From contig DAOVMD010000109.1 in assembly GCA_030630935.1 (NCBI GenBank), positions 1 to 8,561 on the forward strand: a DNA stretch of 8,561 nt, in the 5' to 3' direction. A model generated the notes under the pieces. The model made no database searches, was not told where the DNA came from, and saw only the letters and a list, made by a program, of their open reading frames with translations. Both the position numbers and the translations under genes were made by a program. The number at the start of each line of letters is the position of its first letter. Position 1 is the stretch's first letter. The DNA comes from Candidatus Mcinerneyibacteriota bacterium. Its GTDB lineage: Bacteria > AUK180 > JAQVHJ01. This document shows, in pieces, positions 1 through 8,561 of the stretch.

Positions 1-75
1 ATCTGATGCAACATAATCCTCGATGCTTTTGGGAAACAAATTCATTTGTTTCCTGTTACCAAAACGATAAGACAT
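1..75 (-). CDS. IS1182-family transposase, N-terminal 25 residues (cut by window edge)
   Basis: Reading the minus strand from an ATG at 75-73 gives 25 open codons that run off the left edge: MSYRFGNRKQMNLFP followed by KSIEDYVASD. This resembles the start I know from IS1182-type DDE transposases, roughly '(Y)(R/K)YGNRxQ(M/L)(N/S)LxPxSIEDYVxxDDPVR', the N-terminal region of an enzyme that cuts and joins the ends of its own element. A good ribosome binding site (AAGGAG) lies eight bases upstream and a TATAAT-like box further upstream, so this looks like the true start rather than an internal fragment. Whether the rest of the gene is intact cannot be seen. It is transcribed away from the two kinase genes and probably has no functional link to them. 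The family call rests on memory of the conserved N-terminus over only 25 residues. Confidence 0.75.
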   Translation of the reverse strand, partial: MSYRFGNRKQMNLFPKSIEDYVASD

Positions 76-364: not shown

Positions 365-3300
365 ATGATGAAAAATTCTAAGAAAATTTTTATTTATATA
401 ATGATTCCAGTATTATTACTGATTTTCAATTTTACCTATACCGCAGTAATAAATTCAAGAGTTAAAAATATCAATACAAACTTTGAAAAAGAAGTCTCGA
501 ATATAGAAAGTCAATTTCAAAAGACTTTAGATAATAAATTGAAATTAATCCTTGAATTGCTGAAAAATGAATTTACCGGAAAAAACTTCAAAACGAAACC
601 CGAGATTCGCAAATCATTTGATTTAGTTGAAAGGAATATTGCCCGAAATATATTAAACATTCCCATATCCAAGTTTCTTTATTCAATTCGTTACTTCTCA
701 GATAATAACCTGATAATTTATAAAGGTGTCCTCTTTCCAATAGATCAATTTAAGATAAATAATCTATTCGAAAATAAAGATGAACCGCACTTTTATGTTT
801 TAAGAGATAAGTTATATAATAAGATAATTATCTTTAATATCCCAGTTAATGAGACTGATAATATCTTTTTCTTTATTTTATTCGAAGATACTTTAAATCT
901 TTATCCTGATTTTTATAAGTTAAAGGATTGCTTATCTGAGCAGACTAAAAATTGTATTGAGATCTTCAGTAAAAATACTTCTCATGACAGATCCCGTTTA
1001 TTGGAATTTAACTATCAAGGAGAAACCAGATTTTATTACGCTTCAAAAGCTGAGATAAAAGAAATCATATTAAATTTAAACAAGCTAAAAAAGAAAAATG
1101 TTGAGACAGCAGTTTTCTTCCTAATAATCTTCTGGATTTTATTAATACATATTATTTTATCATATTTAAAGAAAACGGAAAATAAAACTTCCTTAATTGT
1201 ACTAATTCCAATTTTCATTCATATACTTTGTTTAACATATTTATTTCAAAAATATGAAACAGTTGAGATTTTTAATTGGATATTTTCAAATAATCTTATA
1301 CTTCTATCCGTTTCAATTTTATTTCTTATTATCTCAGTAGAAATTTATAGTTTTTATAAAAAGGTAGTTGAAGGAAAAATTCTCAATGAAATAATTTATA
1401 ATATTATGTCACTGGTATTTTCAATTTTTTTCATCTACTTCTTTAATAAATCAATTGTACAATTTAATCATTTGAATTTTAATTTTCTTGCAAGCATGGA
1501 TTATAAACTATTTTTTGTAATCTGGAAATATTTTATATTTTTTATTGCAATTATATTAGTTCATTTTTCAATATTTTTATTGACGAGACCTTCAATTAAA
1601 CCACTTAATATTATAATTCGGGATAAGATTAAATCCTTTAAGGCACCACCCATGCTTTGGTTATGGTCTTATCTCGGATTAATCCTTGTCTTAATTTTTG
1701 TAAATCCCCAAATCGCAGGGATATTAACAACCTTATTAGCTGTAGGTTCTCTTTTGACGTTTATTGATATTTATCATATTAAACAGAGCTTGCTCAGTCC
1801 CCTAAACTATTTGATTTTAATAATCATATTTGCCTTCTCAATAAGTTTTGTTTCCTTTCCTACCCAATTAAGGAGTTTCTTTAACTTTCGAGATAAAATA
1901 ATTAAGGGTTCCATTCTTCAGTCACTTGAAGCCAAACATGATATAGAACTGGATTTAATTACTAAGATTTCAAATCAGATTGAAGATGAACTGGATTTTT
2001 CTGAAATCATTATTGAAGGGGATCCTTCATTCATTTCTCCCTTGATTTATTTAAAGTATTTCAATCGAATTTTATTGTCAAACGAAGGAATTCGAATTAG
2101 GATTATTGATGTTCGCGGGAATATCCTTTCTGATTACTTAAAGAATTATATGGTAGAAATGGATGATGAGATAAAACGAGACGAGCTTGATTTCAAGAAA
2201 AACAAATCTTCAACTACTCATTATTTAATTGAAGAGACTGATTACAAGAAGATTTCTTTTTTCATGCCGCTTAAAGATAAAGAGAATGTTCTCGGAGTTA
2301 TGAATATTAATCTAATGATTCCTAAAAAGATGCATAACATTGTACAGGGTTCGACTCGTGATTATTATTTTAATAAGGAGGTTATTGTAACACAGTATTT
2401 TGACGGCAATATCATTGATTCATCACGACCTGGAATTAATATCCCATACTCTAAAGAAAATTTAAAAGCTATAAAGTTCAATAATATTATTTATTCAGTA
2501 ACATACAAGGAAATTCCGGAATTTGGGGAAGTTTCAATTGCAATTCCGAAGCTAAGTTTTATTGAGAAAGTGCAATTATTTATTTTCAATAATATTTTAA
2601 TATTCATAATTCTATTCTCTATATTATCAATACTTTTTATTATATATTTCCTATTTCATTATTTCTCAAAACAGCAAACACATCATTATAAACTTTCTTT
2701 CCAGCATCAATTAACTTTAATTTTAATATTCCTTCTTTTAGTTCCGTTATTCTCAGGCATTTCACTATTCCGGAGAAATTACTTCAGGATTCAAAAGGAA
2801 AATATTTATAATCAATCTTTAAATCGTTTAGTTTTACTGGAAGATACTATAAGGAACCGGTCAATTAACATCCTGGATAATTTCCTAAAGCAAATTGAAG
2901 AAGAAAACCTAATCGCAGGAGATGACTATAATTTTTTAGGAAGTAATATTAAAATATTTGAATATAATAGTTTTAAAGATTTTGATACCAGCATAATTTC
3001 GAATACATTTCTCACCGGTTTACGATATAAGAGTTACTTCCGGTTTCAAAATAGGAAGCTCTACCTGTTTTATTTTACGTTATTAAGGGATAAAGATAAT
3101 GAAGTTACCGGTACAATCCTTTTAGGTTTAGAGATAGATGAGAACTTCTTTTCTGAGCTCATAAAAATTTTTCCATACCAGATTAGTATTTTCCGTGGCC
3201 GGATTCTATACCTTACTAACAACCAGGAAATTTTTCTATCCGGGTATATTACGTCAGAAATACCTTATGAGAATTTTAGTAACCTTTATAGAAATAAGAA

Positions 3301-4366
3301 TTTTGACAGCTTAATGTTCAAGTTCAATAAGAAGGATTATTACCTTGTTTTCCTAACACTACTTAATGATAACAAAGAATATATCGGGTCATTAGCAATC
3401 CTGGACCAGATCTTCCCCGAAACCGAAGAAGGTACAATTGATACTTACCTTTATAAATTAGTAACATTCTCTTATTTATTATTCATAATAATTTTAGTTA
3501 TTTCATATCTACTCACATTATTCATCAGTAAACCATTGAATGAGCTTCTGAAAGCTACAAAAGAGATTCAGGATGAAAACCTTGATTATCAAATTGAGTA
3601 TCGAGGTGCTGAAGATATCCAGGTATTGATTGATGAGTTCAATAAGATGATAATTGAATTAAGAGAAACGCGAAAGGAACTTATAAATATTGAAAGGTTG
3701 AAAGCCTGGAAAGAAATAGCAAAGAAGATTGCACATGAGATTAAGAACCCTCTTACTCCAATTAAACTAACAATTGAACATCTTATTACACTCTATCAGG
3801 ATAATCCGAAGGAATTTGACAAGCTCTTTTTAAAGGCAACAGAAAATATCCTTGAACAGGTAGATAATCTTAAGGATATCTCGGATGAATTCTCTACATT
3901 CGGCCGAATTGCAGAGCCTAAGAAGAAGAAGACAAACTTGACAAACTTAATAAATGAGATTATTCTGCTCTATATTGGGAGAGGTGAAAACGAAGGGATT
4001 AAACTTGAAAGTGATATTGAAGATAATGTTTTCGTTTTTGCTGATGAACGAATGATCAAAAGAGTTTTAATTAATCTTCTCGACAATGCACTTGGGGCAT
4101 TCATTGACATAAAGGGAACTATCAAGTTAGAACTTAAATCTGATAAAGAATTTATATATTTAAAAGTTATTGACAACGGTGTTGGAATTAATGATAACGT
4201 AATTGAGAAAATCTTTGAGCCGAACTTCTCAACAAAAAAAGCCGGAATGGGTTTAGGACTTGGAATAGTTAAAGAGATTTTAGAAAAGCATGATGGAGCC
4301 ATTTCCATTTCAAGTAAGCACGGAAAAGAAACGATTGTTTTAATTACAATACCTCGCTTTGAATAA
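365..4366 (+). CDS. NtrY-like multi-pass membrane sensor histidine kinase with three extracytoplasmic regions
   Basis: This is a sensor kinase that should autophosphorylate a histidine and pass the phosphate to a response regulator. Order by residue: membrane segment 8-29; extracytoplasmic domain 30-245; eight hydrophobic segments between about 249 and 498; second extracytoplasmic domain about 499-735, with Cache/PAS-like strand patterns; segments 743-765 and 783-801; third Cache-like domain about 802-1030; final segment 1035-1054; HAMP about 1055-1105; HisKA with the H-box AHEIKNPLTPIKL (His1124); and HATPase_c with N-box N1237-N1241, DNGVGI 1270-1275, FEPNFSTK and GMGLGLG 1294-1300. All catalytic boxes are intact. 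The WKEIAKKIAHEIKNPLTP stretch is typical of the NtrY family. Twelve segments with a cytoplasmic N-terminus put the kinase inside, and loop charges agree (Lys/Arg-rich loops near 269-274, 332-338 and 408-426). At 1333 residues it is far longer than usual NtrY (about 750). The only non-membrane cysteines, C189 and C197, lie in the first external domain. No partner regulator is in the window. The ligand is unknown. Confidence 0.9.
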   Translation: MMKNSKKIFIYIMIPVLLLIFNFTYTAVINSRVKNINTNFEKEVSNIESQFQKTLDNKLKLILELLKNEFTGKNFKTKPEIRKSFDLVERNIARNILNIPISKFLYSIRYFSDNNLIIYKGVLFPIDQFKINNLFENKDEPHFYVLRDKLYNKIIIFNIPVNETDNIFFFILFEDTLNLYPDFYKLKDCLSEQTKNCIEIFSKNTSHDRSRLLEFNYQGETRFYYASKAEIKEIILNLNKLKKKNVETAVFFLIIFWILLIHIILSYLKKTENKTSLIVLIPIFIHILCLTYLFQKYETVEIFNWIFSNNLILLSVSILFLIISVEIYSFYKKVVEGKILNEIIYNIMSLVFSIFFIYFFNKSIVQFNHLNFNFLASMDYKLFFVIWKYFIFFIAIILVHFSIFLLTRPSIKPLNIIIRDKIKSFKAPPMLWLWSYLGLILVLIFVNPQIAGILTTLLAVGSLLTFIDIYHIKQSLLSPLNYLILIIIFAFSISFVSFPTQLRSFFNFRDKIIKGSILQSLEAKHDIELDLITKISNQIEDELDFSEIIIEGDPSFISPLIYLKYFNRILLSNEGIRIRIIDVRGNILSDYLKNYMVEMDDEIKRDELDFKKNKSSTTHYLIEETDYKKISFFMPLKDKENVLGVMNINLMIPKKMHNIVQGSTRDYYFNKEVIVTQYFDGNIIDSSRPGINIPYSKENLKAIKFNNIIYSVTYKEIPEFGEVSIAIPKLSFIEKVQLFIFNNILIFIILFSILSILFIIYFLFHYFSKQQTHHYKLSFQHQLTLILIFLLLVPLFSGISLFRRNYFRIQKENIYNQSLNRLVLLEDTIRNRSINILDNFLKQIEEENLIAGDDYNFLGSNIKIFEYNSFKDFDTSIISNTFLTGLRYKSYFRFQNRKLYLFYFTLLRDKDNEVTGTILLGLEIDENFFSELIKIFPYQISIFRGRILYLTNNQEIFLSGYITSEIPYENFSNLYRNKNFDSLMFKFNKKDYYLVFLTLLNDNKEYIGSLAILDQIFPETEEGTIDTYLYKLVTFSYLLFIIILVISYLLTLFISKPLNELLKATKEIQDENLDYQIEYRGAEDIQVLIDEFNKMIIELRETRKELINIERLKAWKEIAKKIAHEIKNPLTPIKLTIEHLITLYQDNPKEFDKLFLKATENILEQVDNLKDISDEFSTFGRIAEPKKKKTNLTNLINEIILLYIGRGENEGIKLESDIEDNVFVFADERMIKRVLINLLDNALGAFIDIKGTIKLELKSDKEFIYLKVIDNGVGINDNVIEKIFEPNFSTKKAGMGLGLGIVKEILEKHDGAISISSKHGKETIVLITIPRFE

Positions 4367-4386: not shown

Positions 4387-7300
4387 TTGGATGAGAATCG
4401 CTATGAGAAGATAAGAGAAATCGACAGTGGCGGTCAGGGAGATGTAAGTTTAGTTTTTGATAAGCAATTAGACAGGAATCTTGCATTAAAGAAACTCAAG
4501 AAGGGCGCTTCTGAAGCAGCTATAAAACAATTTAAAACCGAAGCCCTGATAAATGCAAAATTGGAACACCCCTCTATTCCGCCTATTCATGAACTTGCTA
4601 CAAACATTGAAGATAATAATATTTATTTTACAATGCGATACATTGAAGGGAAAACTCTCGCTGAAAAGATTGCTGAAGCAAATAATTTAAATGAAAGATT
4701 GAGATTGTTAGGAAATTTTATTGATATCTGTAACGCTGTTGCATTTGCTCATTCAAAAGGAATCCTACATCTTGATATTAAACCTGATAATATTAAGTTG
4801 GGTAAATACGGCGAATCAATCCTATTGGATTGGGGTATTGGAAAATTTGAAGATGAAAACTTCACTCTACATGGTTATACTGCTAAATTCACTTCCCCGG
4901 AAGCAGCCCGGCATAAATCTAATGAGATTGATAAGCGGAGCGATATTTACTCATTAGGTTCAGTTTTATATTCAATACTAACGGGTAAGGTACCATTTGA
5001 TTCCGGAACATCGAGTGGTGATCTTTTTCTTGTGATAAACCAAGAACCCAAGACCATAAAAGAAATTGAACCTGCTATGCCGATTGAATTAATTGGAATC
5101 TGTAATAAGGCAATGAAAAAAAATAAAGCTGAACGATTTCAACATGCTAAAGAAATGGCTGAAGCATTATCAGATTTTATTTCAGGAAAAATTGTTAAGG
5201 ATATTTATATTCCCTGGTATAAAAAAATCTATAAAACTTTTCAGATGCATAAATTCTCTATTACAATTAATACATTAATAATTTTAATAATAACAGCATT
5301 TGTTTTATTTAGTGTTTCTCAACGAAAAGAGATGCTTGCAAATATCTCCCGCTCAAGAACATTAAACTTGTATGGTGCAAAGGCTGAATTTGAAAAGAGC
5401 TTCAACCTTGCATATTTTTATTATGCTAATTCATTTTTGAAAACACCAGGGATGAAGTTGACACCATTCTCCCGGGCTAAGATGGCAAGCCTATATCTGT
5501 CAATAGTTCCATTGGAGAGTTCAAAAAACATTAATAATTCAAGCCTGATTCGTGTATTACTCTCACCTGACAGTTCAAAGTTCCTTATTAATACAGTAAA
5601 TGATAACATTCTTCTTGTTGATTCCAAATCATATAAGGTTCTACAAATATTCAAAGGAATTGATTGTGATTTATCTTCTGATGGAAAAACTCTTGCTTAC
5701 ATTTCAAAAGATAATGCGATTATTTTAATTAATGTTGAATCCGGAGAATTGGTAAAAAACTGCTCCCTCAATTCAGGTAAACCTGTAATAATAAAATTTA
5801 ATAATGAAGGGAATTATTTAATAATTGGCTTTGCATCGGGTCGAATAAAATTATGGAATCTAAAGGAAGATGAACCTATTATAACTCTTGAAGGACATTC
5901 AACTGCAATTTCAGCTCTAAACTTTATGAAATCTGATGAAATTTTGATATCAGGTTCAAAATCCGGGATGATGAAAATTTGGAATATTGCAAGAATTAAT
6001 GAAATTGGTTATAAGGCACTAACTTCTCCTAATTTAATTCAAACGTATATTGTGAAACCAGGTGATACTTTAAAATCAATCGCATTCAAATTCTTTAAAG
6101 ATTCTTCGAACTGGATTCTGTTATTAAAACAGAATCCTAAAATTACTAATCCTGATTTGATCAAACCCGGGACAAAATTAAAAATTCTCTTTCAAGATAA
6201 TAATAATTTAATTTTCTTTGATCAGCAGATAGGCAATCTTAAAATCAGAAATATTAGTAATAAATACAATAGAGTATTATTTAAAAAAATATTCAATGAG
6301 GAAAATGAATTAATAAATATACAAATGTACCCGGCAAAAAATATTCAAGCGCATTCTAGTAAGTTAACTTGCATTTCTATAAATGAAACCAGTAATCTAA
6401 TTGCAACTTCCGGAAGAGATTCAACAATAAAAATCTGGAACCTTCATGATTATTCACTTATTAAAATTATTAAAGCGCATAAAGGCTGGGTCTCATCTGT
6501 TAAATTCAGTCCGAAAGGAAATTTCCTACTCTCATCAGGTTTTGATAATAAATTAAAAATTTGGGACACATCTGATTTTCAGCTTCACGTCCAGATTCAA
6601 GGTCATTTTGACGCAATTACATCTGCGATATTTTCCAATGACGGGAACAAAATAATCTCCACCTCTTCTGATAAATCCATAAAAACATGGAGGTTCGAAA
6701 ACAGATCGAAGTCTTTAACTCTTGATAAGCATCTTGGAACAATTTTAAGCATAGCCTTTAACCCGACCGGAGATATCCTTGCTTCATGTGCGACAGACGA
6801 AATTATCAATATCTGGAGTGTTAAAGATAGAATTATAAAAAAGTCCTTAATTGAACAATATAATAAGATAAATGATATACTGTTTCTCCCCGATAGGAAG
6901 AGACTCGTTTCGGCAGGGAATGAATCAATAATAATCTGGGATATAGATAATGGTAAGAAAATCCAAAACCTGTATGGACATGAGGGTTCAATTAATACAA
7001 TCGCAATTGACCCTGAAAGAAATTTATTAATCTCCGGCGGGGCAGATAATAATATCTTTATCTGGGATATAAACACCTGGAAAAGAATTAAAAACTTTAA
7101 TGCGCATGATACAAATATTATTACAGTTGCTGCAAGCTCAAAAGTCAACTATTTTATTTCAGGTGATGAAAATGGAATAATCAAGATTTGGAATACTAAT
7201 ACATTCCAGAATATTAAAACTCTGATAACTGAATCTGGCTCTGTAAACTCTTTGGTTATCGATACGGTTAACTCAATCCTGGTCTCAGGTCATAAAAATA

Positions 7301-8457
7301 GCGATATCTTAATCTGGAATACAAAGACCTGGGAGTTAATCAGCAAGTTAAAAGGACACAGCAGCTCAGTATCCCATCTTAAATTAATTAATAATTCAAA
7401 GTATCTAATATCATCCGGGACTCGAACAGGAATAATTATTATCTGGGATATGAATACTTTTAAACAAGTTAGTTATTTCCAGAACAAGGAGGGCTGGATA
7501 TTTTCATTTGATATAGATCATAACTCAGAAATCATTAGTGTTGCATATAATAATAGAATATTCTTTTATTCATTAACTAACTTAATCTTAAGTGATAATG
7601 CAATCGAAAATGATCTAAAAAACAAACTCGATCTATTCTTATTAAATATCTCTGATTCTGCGTTTAATACTCAAGGGATCAAACTTTTTCACTCTAAATC
7701 AGAACATTATAAAATTGCCCTTAAATTCTCCAGGTTCTTAATTCTCACTCTAACTCAAAAGGAACAATCTGTAAAAATAAAAAAGAACTTTATGAAATTT
7801 ATTTTATTGATTATATTCTATATTGTATTCTTAATTATATCTTTTTATTTAAAAAAATACTTAGCTTCGAAATCTGGATTAATAAAAATTTATTCTCCCT
7901 TAGAAATCATACTTGGGGTATTATTTATAACTTTACCCATCTTCATTTTTATTCAACCATTAAAGATTGAGCCAGGTACTCAAAATATAATCTCAAATCT
8001 TTCTAAATATTCTTTAACAAAATATTTCACATTAAATATTCAATTTTTTATGATACTATTTATTGTATCTATAATTACAGCTATAATTATTTATATTGTA
8101 AAACCTAAAATCAATTTCAATCTTATCCCTGGATTCATCCCAGGCTTGATTGGAATACTTTCAATTAGTATTTTTATTCATAACTATACAAAACCATTCT
8201 TTAAAGAGCGAGGGTTTAATATTGTTTTAGTAGAACCATTTATAATAGGATTTCTAATACTCCTTATTATTGTAGCCAATGTAATGGTATATGTCTTAAT
8301 AAAAAAGGATAAGATTACAAAACAAAAAGCTGCTTTAAAAAACTTATTCCCTTCTCTAATAAGTATAACATTTTCATTTTTTACCTTGATTTATCTGACA
8401 GCATTTTTCATAATCAGATTCTTCTTTTATCTCGAGCTGTATCAGTTTCAAATTTGA
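4387..8457 (+). CDS. Transmembrane Ser/Thr protein kinase with WD40 repeats, an inserted LysM domain and six C-terminal membrane segments
   Basis: This is a Hanks-type kinase, expected to phosphorylate Ser/Thr on cytoplasmic proteins. Kinase domain, residues 6-264: glycine loop SGGQGDV (14-20, first Gly of GxGxxG replaced by Asp13), ATP lysine K35, helix-C E52, catalytic loop HLDIKPDN (128-135, with Leu129 in place of the usual Arg), DWG 148-150 in place of DFG, SPE 170-172, DIYSLG 186-191, and R250. A membrane segment at 290-311 is followed by a helical linker to about 380. Next come about four weak WD40-like repeats (386-546), a LysM domain (553-601: YIVKPGDTL, then NP, then IKPGTKLKI), a poorly defined stretch, and about ten clearer repeats (657-1070) ending in IWD/IWN. 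Six hydrophobic segments follow near 1138-1156, 1172-1190, 1219-1238, 1247-1265, 1284-1305 and 1321-1349. Lysine-rich loops (1156-1167, 1239-1241, 1306-1318) fit a cytoplasmic side, so the WD40-LysM part is predicted to be outside. It lies 20 bp after the histidine kinase gene and is probably co-transcribed. Kinase-TM-WD40 proteins are common in Planctomycetes and relatives; the LysM and the six-segment tail are unusual. The ligand and substrate are unknown. Confidence 0.9.
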   Translation: MDENRYEKIREIDSGGQGDVSLVFDKQLDRNLALKKLKKGASEAAIKQFKTEALINAKLEHPSIPPIHELATNIEDNNIYFTMRYIEGKTLAEKIAEANNLNERLRLLGNFIDICNAVAFAHSKGILHLDIKPDNIKLGKYGESILLDWGIGKFEDENFTLHGYTAKFTSPEAARHKSNEIDKRSDIYSLGSVLYSILTGKVPFDSGTSSGDLFLVINQEPKTIKEIEPAMPIELIGICNKAMKKNKAERFQHAKEMAEALSDFISGKIVKDIYIPWYKKIYKTFQMHKFSITINTLIILIITAFVLFSVSQRKEMLANISRSRTLNLYGAKAEFEKSFNLAYFYYANSFLKTPGMKLTPFSRAKMASLYLSIVPLESSKNINNSSLIRVLLSPDSSKFLINTVNDNILLVDSKSYKVLQIFKGIDCDLSSDGKTLAYISKDNAIILINVESGELVKNCSLNSGKPVIIKFNNEGNYLIIGFASGRIKLWNLKEDEPIITLEGHSTAISALNFMKSDEILISGSKSGMMKIWNIARINEIGYKALTSPNLIQTYIVKPGDTLKSIAFKFFKDSSNWILLLKQNPKITNPDLIKPGTKLKILFQDNNNLIFFDQQIGNLKIRNISNKYNRVLFKKIFNEENELINIQMYPAKNIQAHSSKLTCISINETSNLIATSGRDSTIKIWNLHDYSLIKIIKAHKGWVSSVKFSPKGNFLLSSGFDNKLKIWDTSDFQLHVQIQGHFDAITSAIFSNDGNKIISTSSDKSIKTWRFENRSKSLTLDKHLGTILSIAFNPTGDILASCATDEIINIWSVKDRIIKKSLIEQYNKINDILFLPDRKRLVSAGNESIIIWDIDNGKKIQNLYGHEGSINTIAIDPERNLLISGGADNNIFIWDINTWKRIKNFNAHDTNIITVAASSKVNYFISGDENGIIKIWNTNTFQNIKTLITESGSVNSLVIDTVNSILVSGHKNSDILIWNTKTWELISKLKGHSSSVSHLKLINNSKYLISSGTRTGIIIIWDMNTFKQVSYFQNKEGWIFSFDIDHNSEIISVAYNNRIFFYSLTNLILSDNAIENDLKNKLDLFLLNISDSAFNTQGIKLFHSKSEHYKIALKFSRFLILTLTQKEQSVKIKKNFMKFILLIIFYIVFLIISFYLKKYLASKSGLIKIYSPLEIILGVLFITLPIFIFIQPLKIEPGTQNIISNLSKYSLTKYFTLNIQFFMILFIVSIITAIIIYIVKPKINFNLIPGFIPGLIGILSISIFIHNYTKPFFKERGFNIVLVEPFIIGFLILLIIVANVMVYVLIKKDKITKQKAALKNLFPSLISITFSFFTLIYLTAFFIIRFFFYLELYQFQI

Positions 8458-8487: not shown

Positions 8488-8528
8488 GAATGTCATTGCG
8501 TATCGTGCAAACCGTCAGAATGTCATTG
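8488..8528 (+). repeat. Short direct repeat GAATGTCATTG, two copies 30 bp apart
   Basis: The 11-mer GAATGTCATTG occurs at 8488-8498 and again at 8518-8528. The sequences after each copy differ, so this is not a simple tandem duplication. TGTCATTG-type strings are frequent at the edges of dispersed intergenic repeats in many bacterial genomes, and the local composition is more GC-rich than the genes before it. The roughly 100 bases from 8458 to the window end hold no gene I can support. Confidence 0.55.
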
Positions 8529-8548
8529 TCCCGACGCGTCGGGATGAC
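8522..8548. repeat. Palindromic intergenic repeat with a perfect 16-bp core
   Basis: TCCCGACGCGTCGGGA at 8529-8544 is a perfect inverted repeat. It is flanked by GTCA at 8522-8525 and its complement TGAC at 8545-8548, with three extra bases (TTG) on the left arm. In RNA this could form a strong stem, but it has almost no loop and no T-run follows, so a classical terminator is not supported. The form (GTCAT..CCCGACGCGTCGGG..ATGAC) looks like a dispersed extragenic palindrome. It may still mark or protect the 3' end of the operon transcript. Confidence 0.6.
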
Positions 8549-8561
8549 TTCCGTTCCACTC

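Follow-up and report, generated by a model that had tools for sequence, protein, structure and literature searches.

The question raised by this locus is what a membrane-bound Ser/Thr kinase may be doing with a LysM domain lodged inside its WD40 propeller. The window, meaning the whole analysed stretch of 8,561 nucleotides from a Candidatus Mcinerneyibacteriota bacterium (assembly GCA_030630935.1, contig DAOVMD010000109.1), carries on its + strand a gene at 4387..8457, in which a TTG start codon is preceded by GGGAG, a sequence resembling a ribosome-binding site, and an open frame of 1356 amino acids follows without any internal stop. The product is a receptor-type Ser/Thr kinase organized as a Hanks kinase domain, one transmembrane helix, about 15 WD40 blades with the LysM between the fourth and the fifth, and a C-terminal group of six helices. 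This single uninterrupted frame and its domain order had been proposed in the first-pass annotation, whose description proved right in all main points. The protein is a real kinase-TM-repeat receptor, set apart by a tail private to its lineage and an insert of the glycan-binding type.

The kinase domain occupies residues 4-262 (4396..5172, + strand), within which the Pfam Pkinase match spans residues 6-252 with an E-value of 1.4e-32, and the best solved relatives, by sequence matches in PDB, are PknB, StkP, and PknA. The Hanks motifs noticed earlier were confirmed, since the catalytic Lys, Glu, HxD Asp, Asn, and DxG Asp are all kept (K35, E52, D130, N135, and D148). Some variants were also observed: HLD replaces HRD at residues 128-130, making this a non-RD kinase, DWG replaces DFG, and Asp13 stands at the first Gly of the Gly-loop. 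The domain is likely to be catalytically active. The membrane segment that had been placed at residues 290-311 (5254..5319, +) was recovered as a single hydropathy helix at 292-310, with a value of 2.5, and three paralogues as well as a fragmentary relative from another genome (G001) have theirs at the corresponding position with respect to the kinase. It is followed by a linker (5320..5526, +) common to the paralogues and to the G001 relative, the alignment with the latter reaching residue 377 at 43% identity.

The WD40 array was delimited with a repeat profile built from the protein's own clear repeats, which detected 13 blades, two of them weak. Four of these precede the LysM (5539..5988, +), blades 1 and 2 being the weak ones, and nine strong repeats follow it at residues 659-1035 (6355..7491, +), each scoring 50-64 bits; Pfam also matched many WD40 families. 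Two degenerate blades were read by eye from the sequence, one directly after the LysM and unscored by the profile (6199..6354, +), the other closing the array (7492..7590, +). The resulting count of about 15 agrees with the initial estimate of about 14 WD40-like repeats.

The LysM, initially located at residues 553-601, was found at residues 554-600 (6046..6186, +), and PF01476 matched it with 42.5 bits in the whole-genome search (E-value 2.3e-10) and with 41.5 bits on the excised piece, against a curated cut-off of 20.9. Such an E-value, together with a score twice the cut-off, indicates that the match is not due to chance. The domain belongs to the subtype W..LxxNPxIxNPDLIxPG and retains, unbroken, two elements that are conserved across the LysM alignment, namely the GDTL loop and the NPDLIxPG segment, which argues that it is not decaying. 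It is TsaP/SafA-like: the nearest sequences of known structure are SafA (PDB 7r1l, E 5e-6) and 6ve2 (E 7e-6), a LysM protein resembling TsaP that we take to be TsaP itself, and these are followed by a fungal effector, Kbp, phage tail LysM proteins, TsaP, and CERK1. Among these relatives, binding to the wall or to chitin is the most frequent role, although not the sole one. In the same genome, the nearest LysMs belong to two TsaP-like proteins with 49% identity, one of which (L004) has a visible signal peptide. However, LysMs of other genomes are equally close (42-53% identity), so recent shuffling within this genome is not indicated. AlphaFold models built from the single sequence without an alignment were too poor for use, with a mean pLDDT of 51 for the LysM alone (68 aa), whose expected fold is beta-alpha-alpha-beta, and 36 for the ectodomain (799 aa). 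Peptidoglycan sensing or tethering is the function that we infer as the best reading of this domain.

The C-terminal part (7777..8454, +) contains six hydrophobic segments at residues 1135-1343, as the first reading had it. This tail, defined by hydropathy and homology, is without a match in Pfam or PDB, and a profile built on it recovered exactly four proteins, namely the window protein and three paralogues of the same genome, with none in the six other genomes of the phylum. Two of the paralogues are encoded in tandem on one contig (C31) and the third on another (C225). In all three, a kinase and one helix lead into a propeller-like region that has diverged, and a six-helix tail homologous to that of the window protein comes last; they also carry an extra N-terminal domain absent from the window protein. 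A local LysM profile, which gave 6e-17 for the window protein, found no LysM in the three paralogues. The nearest relative elsewhere is the G001 fragment, from the same taxonomic family and with 43-44% identity, which ends at a contig edge just before the propeller, that is, before the position of the LysM; a search for its missing C-terminal half returned nothing from that 72%-complete assembly. As far as can be seen from paralogues without a LysM and a relative cut before that point, the tail is a trait of the family and the LysM a trait of one member, the window protein. The suggestion that the tail senses the state of the membrane is speculation. Both contigs that carry paralogues also encode, close to the kinase genes, long proteins that begin like lipoproteins and consist of repeats with units like KGIAIIRWKYDEKGNKIEESFYGKDEKLKE (L035, 1468-3558; L036, 12558-14000), and these could be possible partners.

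Pkinase, helix, and WD40 array follow one another in the order known from Planctomycetota kinase-TM-WD40 proteins, which are predicted to hold the kinase inside and the WD40 part mostly outside, in the periplasm (PMC11032199). The loops of the tail point in the same direction: over the four paralogues, those predicted inside contain 51 K/R in 203 residues vs 29 in 247 for those predicted outside (Fisher p 3e-4), a bias to be taken as a lean and no proof, because loops drawn from paralogues do not count as independent observations. Moreover, a lysine-rich stretch just before the tail runs against the positive-inside rule, and when it is counted as outside, the bias weakens to p 0.01. On this modest evidence, the WD40 part may lie in the periplasm.

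Regarding the cell in which such a protein would operate, penicillin-binding transpeptidases and Omp85 proteins were found in all seven genomes of the phylum, which therefore points to a walled cell with two membranes. No PASTA kinase was seen in these seven genomes. Each of them has PASTA domains, but all the ORFs concerned measure 321-359 residues, which is not enough for a kinase of that type. The two examined (L140 and L141) encode a membrane-anchored PASTA protein without a kinase, adjoining a class A penicillin-binding protein, and the same holds by ORF size in all seven genomes. With no PASTA kinase seen in the seven genomes, there could be room in this phylum for another kinase that responds to the wall, although this is no more than suggestive.

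Upstream of the kinase gene, and separated from it by 20 bases, lies a gene for an NtrY/AtoS-like sensor histidine kinase (365..4366, +; HATPase_c, HisKA, and HAMP), possibly co-transcribed with it. This protein is unusually long (1333 aa) and has a large multi-helix N-terminal part without a Pfam match. On the minus strand, window positions 1-75 hold the start of a frame reading MSYRFGNRKQMNLFPKSIEDYVASD, a short piece without a Pfam match that presumably resembles the N-terminus of an IS1182-type transposase, and positions 8510-8561 correspond to a dispersed repeat of about 40-50 bp holding CCCGACGCGTCGGGATGACTTCC, of which the genome has 40 or more copies, several located at contig ends.

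The first-pass annotation did not recall this exact combination of domains, and the full order was indeed unmatched in any other protein searched. The kinase part was compared with 386 genomes, and 60 regions with long kinase ORFs were fetched from the best matches; none of these long kinases had a LysM by a local profile, nor did any of the fetched regions encode a six-helix C-terminal tail by hydropathy. A Pfam scan of 61 kinase ORFs covered the 25 commonest families among the matches listed, and the statement on LysM rests on the local profile. A blade-LysM-blade query over 290 genomes returned WD40-only or LysM-only matches and none combining both, and a scan of genome contigs with the full-length protein yielded nothing beyond one weak match to a WD40 protein (L045). 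Within the main texts of open-licence papers, no description of bacterial Hanks kinases with a LysM was found.

The search in the opposite direction, from LysM to kinase, covered 19 genomes, the majority of them kinase-rich, from which 57 regions with LysM ORFs of at least 380 residues were fetched and tested by a local kinase profile. A single region was positive (L162, contig C5 of G282), encoding a kinase at residues 48-322, a helix at 382-400, and a LysM at 579-620 (45 bits in Pfam). Six further genomes belonging to that class contain homologues of this L162/L201 type with both kinase and LysM (L202, L203, L204, L209, L210, and L211), so that this kinase-TM-linker-LysM family extends over seven genomes, five genera, and two taxonomic families. 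The six members with an unbroken frame, when examined, each showed one helix separating the kinase from the LysM, while L210 has its kinase divided over two frames; other homologues in the genomes of this family consist of kinase and helix without a LysM. No WD40 was detected in the member scanned, and the LysM is of a different subtype from that of the window protein. Because this design is independent of that of the window protein, an outside LysM has apparently been joined to a Hanks kinase on two or more separate occasions. Each half of the architecture is known or recurrent, even though the full order was unmatched.

Taken as a whole, the protein may be an inner-membrane receptor kinase whose periplasmic WD40-LysM part contacts the wall, whose tail anchors it, and whose kinase signals inside, a reading to which we assign an even chance and in which topology, ligand, and direction of the signal are what we infer. 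The kinase would reside in the cytoplasm, with one helix crossing the inner membrane, and beyond it a large periplasmic WD40 scaffold would bear the LysM as an insert separating blade 4 from blade 5. The LysM would contact peptidoglycan or GlcNAc-containing fragments thereof, while the six-helix tail would bring the other end of the ectodomain back to the inner membrane and hold it there. Contact with the wall, its loss, or strain could then change the position or the oligomeric state of the ectodomain, and this change would be passed on to the kinase. Support for such a receptor comes from a LysM of the exported TsaP type in an organism that makes peptidoglycan. The second kinase-TM-LysM family also favours it, since an independent occurrence in seven genomes makes a LysM outside and a kinase inside a recurrent solution.

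According to the chief rival, the LysM is no more than a wall anchor that fixes the position of the kinase, and the actual signal is either a protein binding to the propeller or a stimulus perceived by the tail; we regard this as less likely, although its probability is appreciable. TsaP probably uses its LysM as a wall anchor, and the window protein carries a single LysM of that class. Moreover, the family can evidently perform its core function without a LysM, since the three paralogues lack one while retaining the kinase, the propeller-like region, and the tail. Against a mere tether, the LysM is the only recognised outside domain of the second family, in which a sensing role is more natural, although this is not decisive.

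It is improbable that the ligand of the LysM is something other than peptidoglycan, such as a protein partner or an ion, or that the domain is a neutral insertion in a tolerant propeller. Potassium-binding Kbp and the phage tail LysM proteins are relatives with other roles, and the insert was seen in one protein only in the searches made; however, the organism has peptidoglycan, and the two conserved LysM elements are intact. A propeller and LysM lying in the cytoplasm, either with the segment at 290-311 failing to cross the membrane or with an inverted topology, is very improbable. Lysine-rich flanks occur on both sides of the first helix as well as before the tail, but one strongly hydrophobic helix is found in all members, the tail loops are K/R-biased, and the described relatives are predicted to be periplasmic. 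An assembly chimera of unrelated genes has a negligible probability despite a short contig that ends in a dispersed repeat and a fragmented assembly of 471 contigs, given that the frame is continuous, the G+C of the LysM (0.29) nearly equals that of the gene (0.30), the tail is homologous to that of paralogues with the same kinase and helix, and the repeat lies outside the gene.

The receptor reading acquires its meaning from questions that are largely open, namely wall sensing via Ser/Thr kinases outside Gram-positives and the inputs of many kinase-WD40 receptors. A propeller with a glycan-binding-type module offers a concrete candidate ligand for a receptor of the latter kind, and the apparently undescribed kinase-TM-LysM family, found across genera, would be a simpler model for the wall-sensing question.

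Among known systems, the Planctomycetota STKs of Ca. Uabimicrobium and Gemmataceae (PMC11032199) resemble the window protein in the N-terminal Pkinase, the helix, and the long C-terminal WD40 array, so the layout of cytoplasmic kinase, one helix, and outside WD40 array is already known. They are, however, mostly single-spanning, their description includes no six-helix tail, and LysM is absent from the main text. Outer repeats are a common feature of such kinases; the tail and the LysM are what is not typical here.

The earlier suggestion of an analogue of PASTA kinases in a Gram-negative-type cell was upheld in part. PknB, PrkC, and StkP share with the window protein a PknB-type kinase, a single helix after it, and outside repeats with a possible peptidoglycan binder, and several findings favour the suggestion: the LysM is real, the phylum has the proteins of a walled two-membrane cell and showed no PASTA kinase in seven genomes, described relatives are predicted to have their WD40 outside, and a second kinase-TM-LysM family exists. 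In contrast to PASTA kinases, the window protein has WD40 and LysM, no PASTA, and an extra six-helix tail. A whole-genome search with PF03793 matched only contig C5 of this genome and not the window contig, and the NCBIfam model PknB_PASTA_kin reached 184 bits against a cut-off of 450, over the kinase part only. Therefore, the protein should not be filed as a PASTA kinase, and what is left of the suggestion is that, by analogy, it may work like one.

The kinase-TM-linker-LysM family is alike in its Hanks kinase, its one helix, and a LysM beyond it, but there the LysM ends a Pro/Thr-rich linker, WD40 and tail are absent, the LysM is of another subtype, and the kinases are not close. Plant LysM receptor-like kinases (CERK1, LYK) likewise combine an outside LysM, one helix, and an inside Ser/Thr kinase, although an N-terminal triplet of LysMs precedes helix and kinase, the reverse of the order found here with its one LysM, WD40 is lacking, and the similarity of the LysMs is only distant (7vs7 CERK1, E 0.05). 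The TsaP/SafA LysM proteins, closest among solved LysM sequences, are not kinases. Tentatively, bacterial LysM receptor kinases might be regarded as a convergent class, built at least twice, whose role in walled two-membrane bacteria would be that of PASTA kinases in Gram-positives or of LysM receptor-like kinases in plants.
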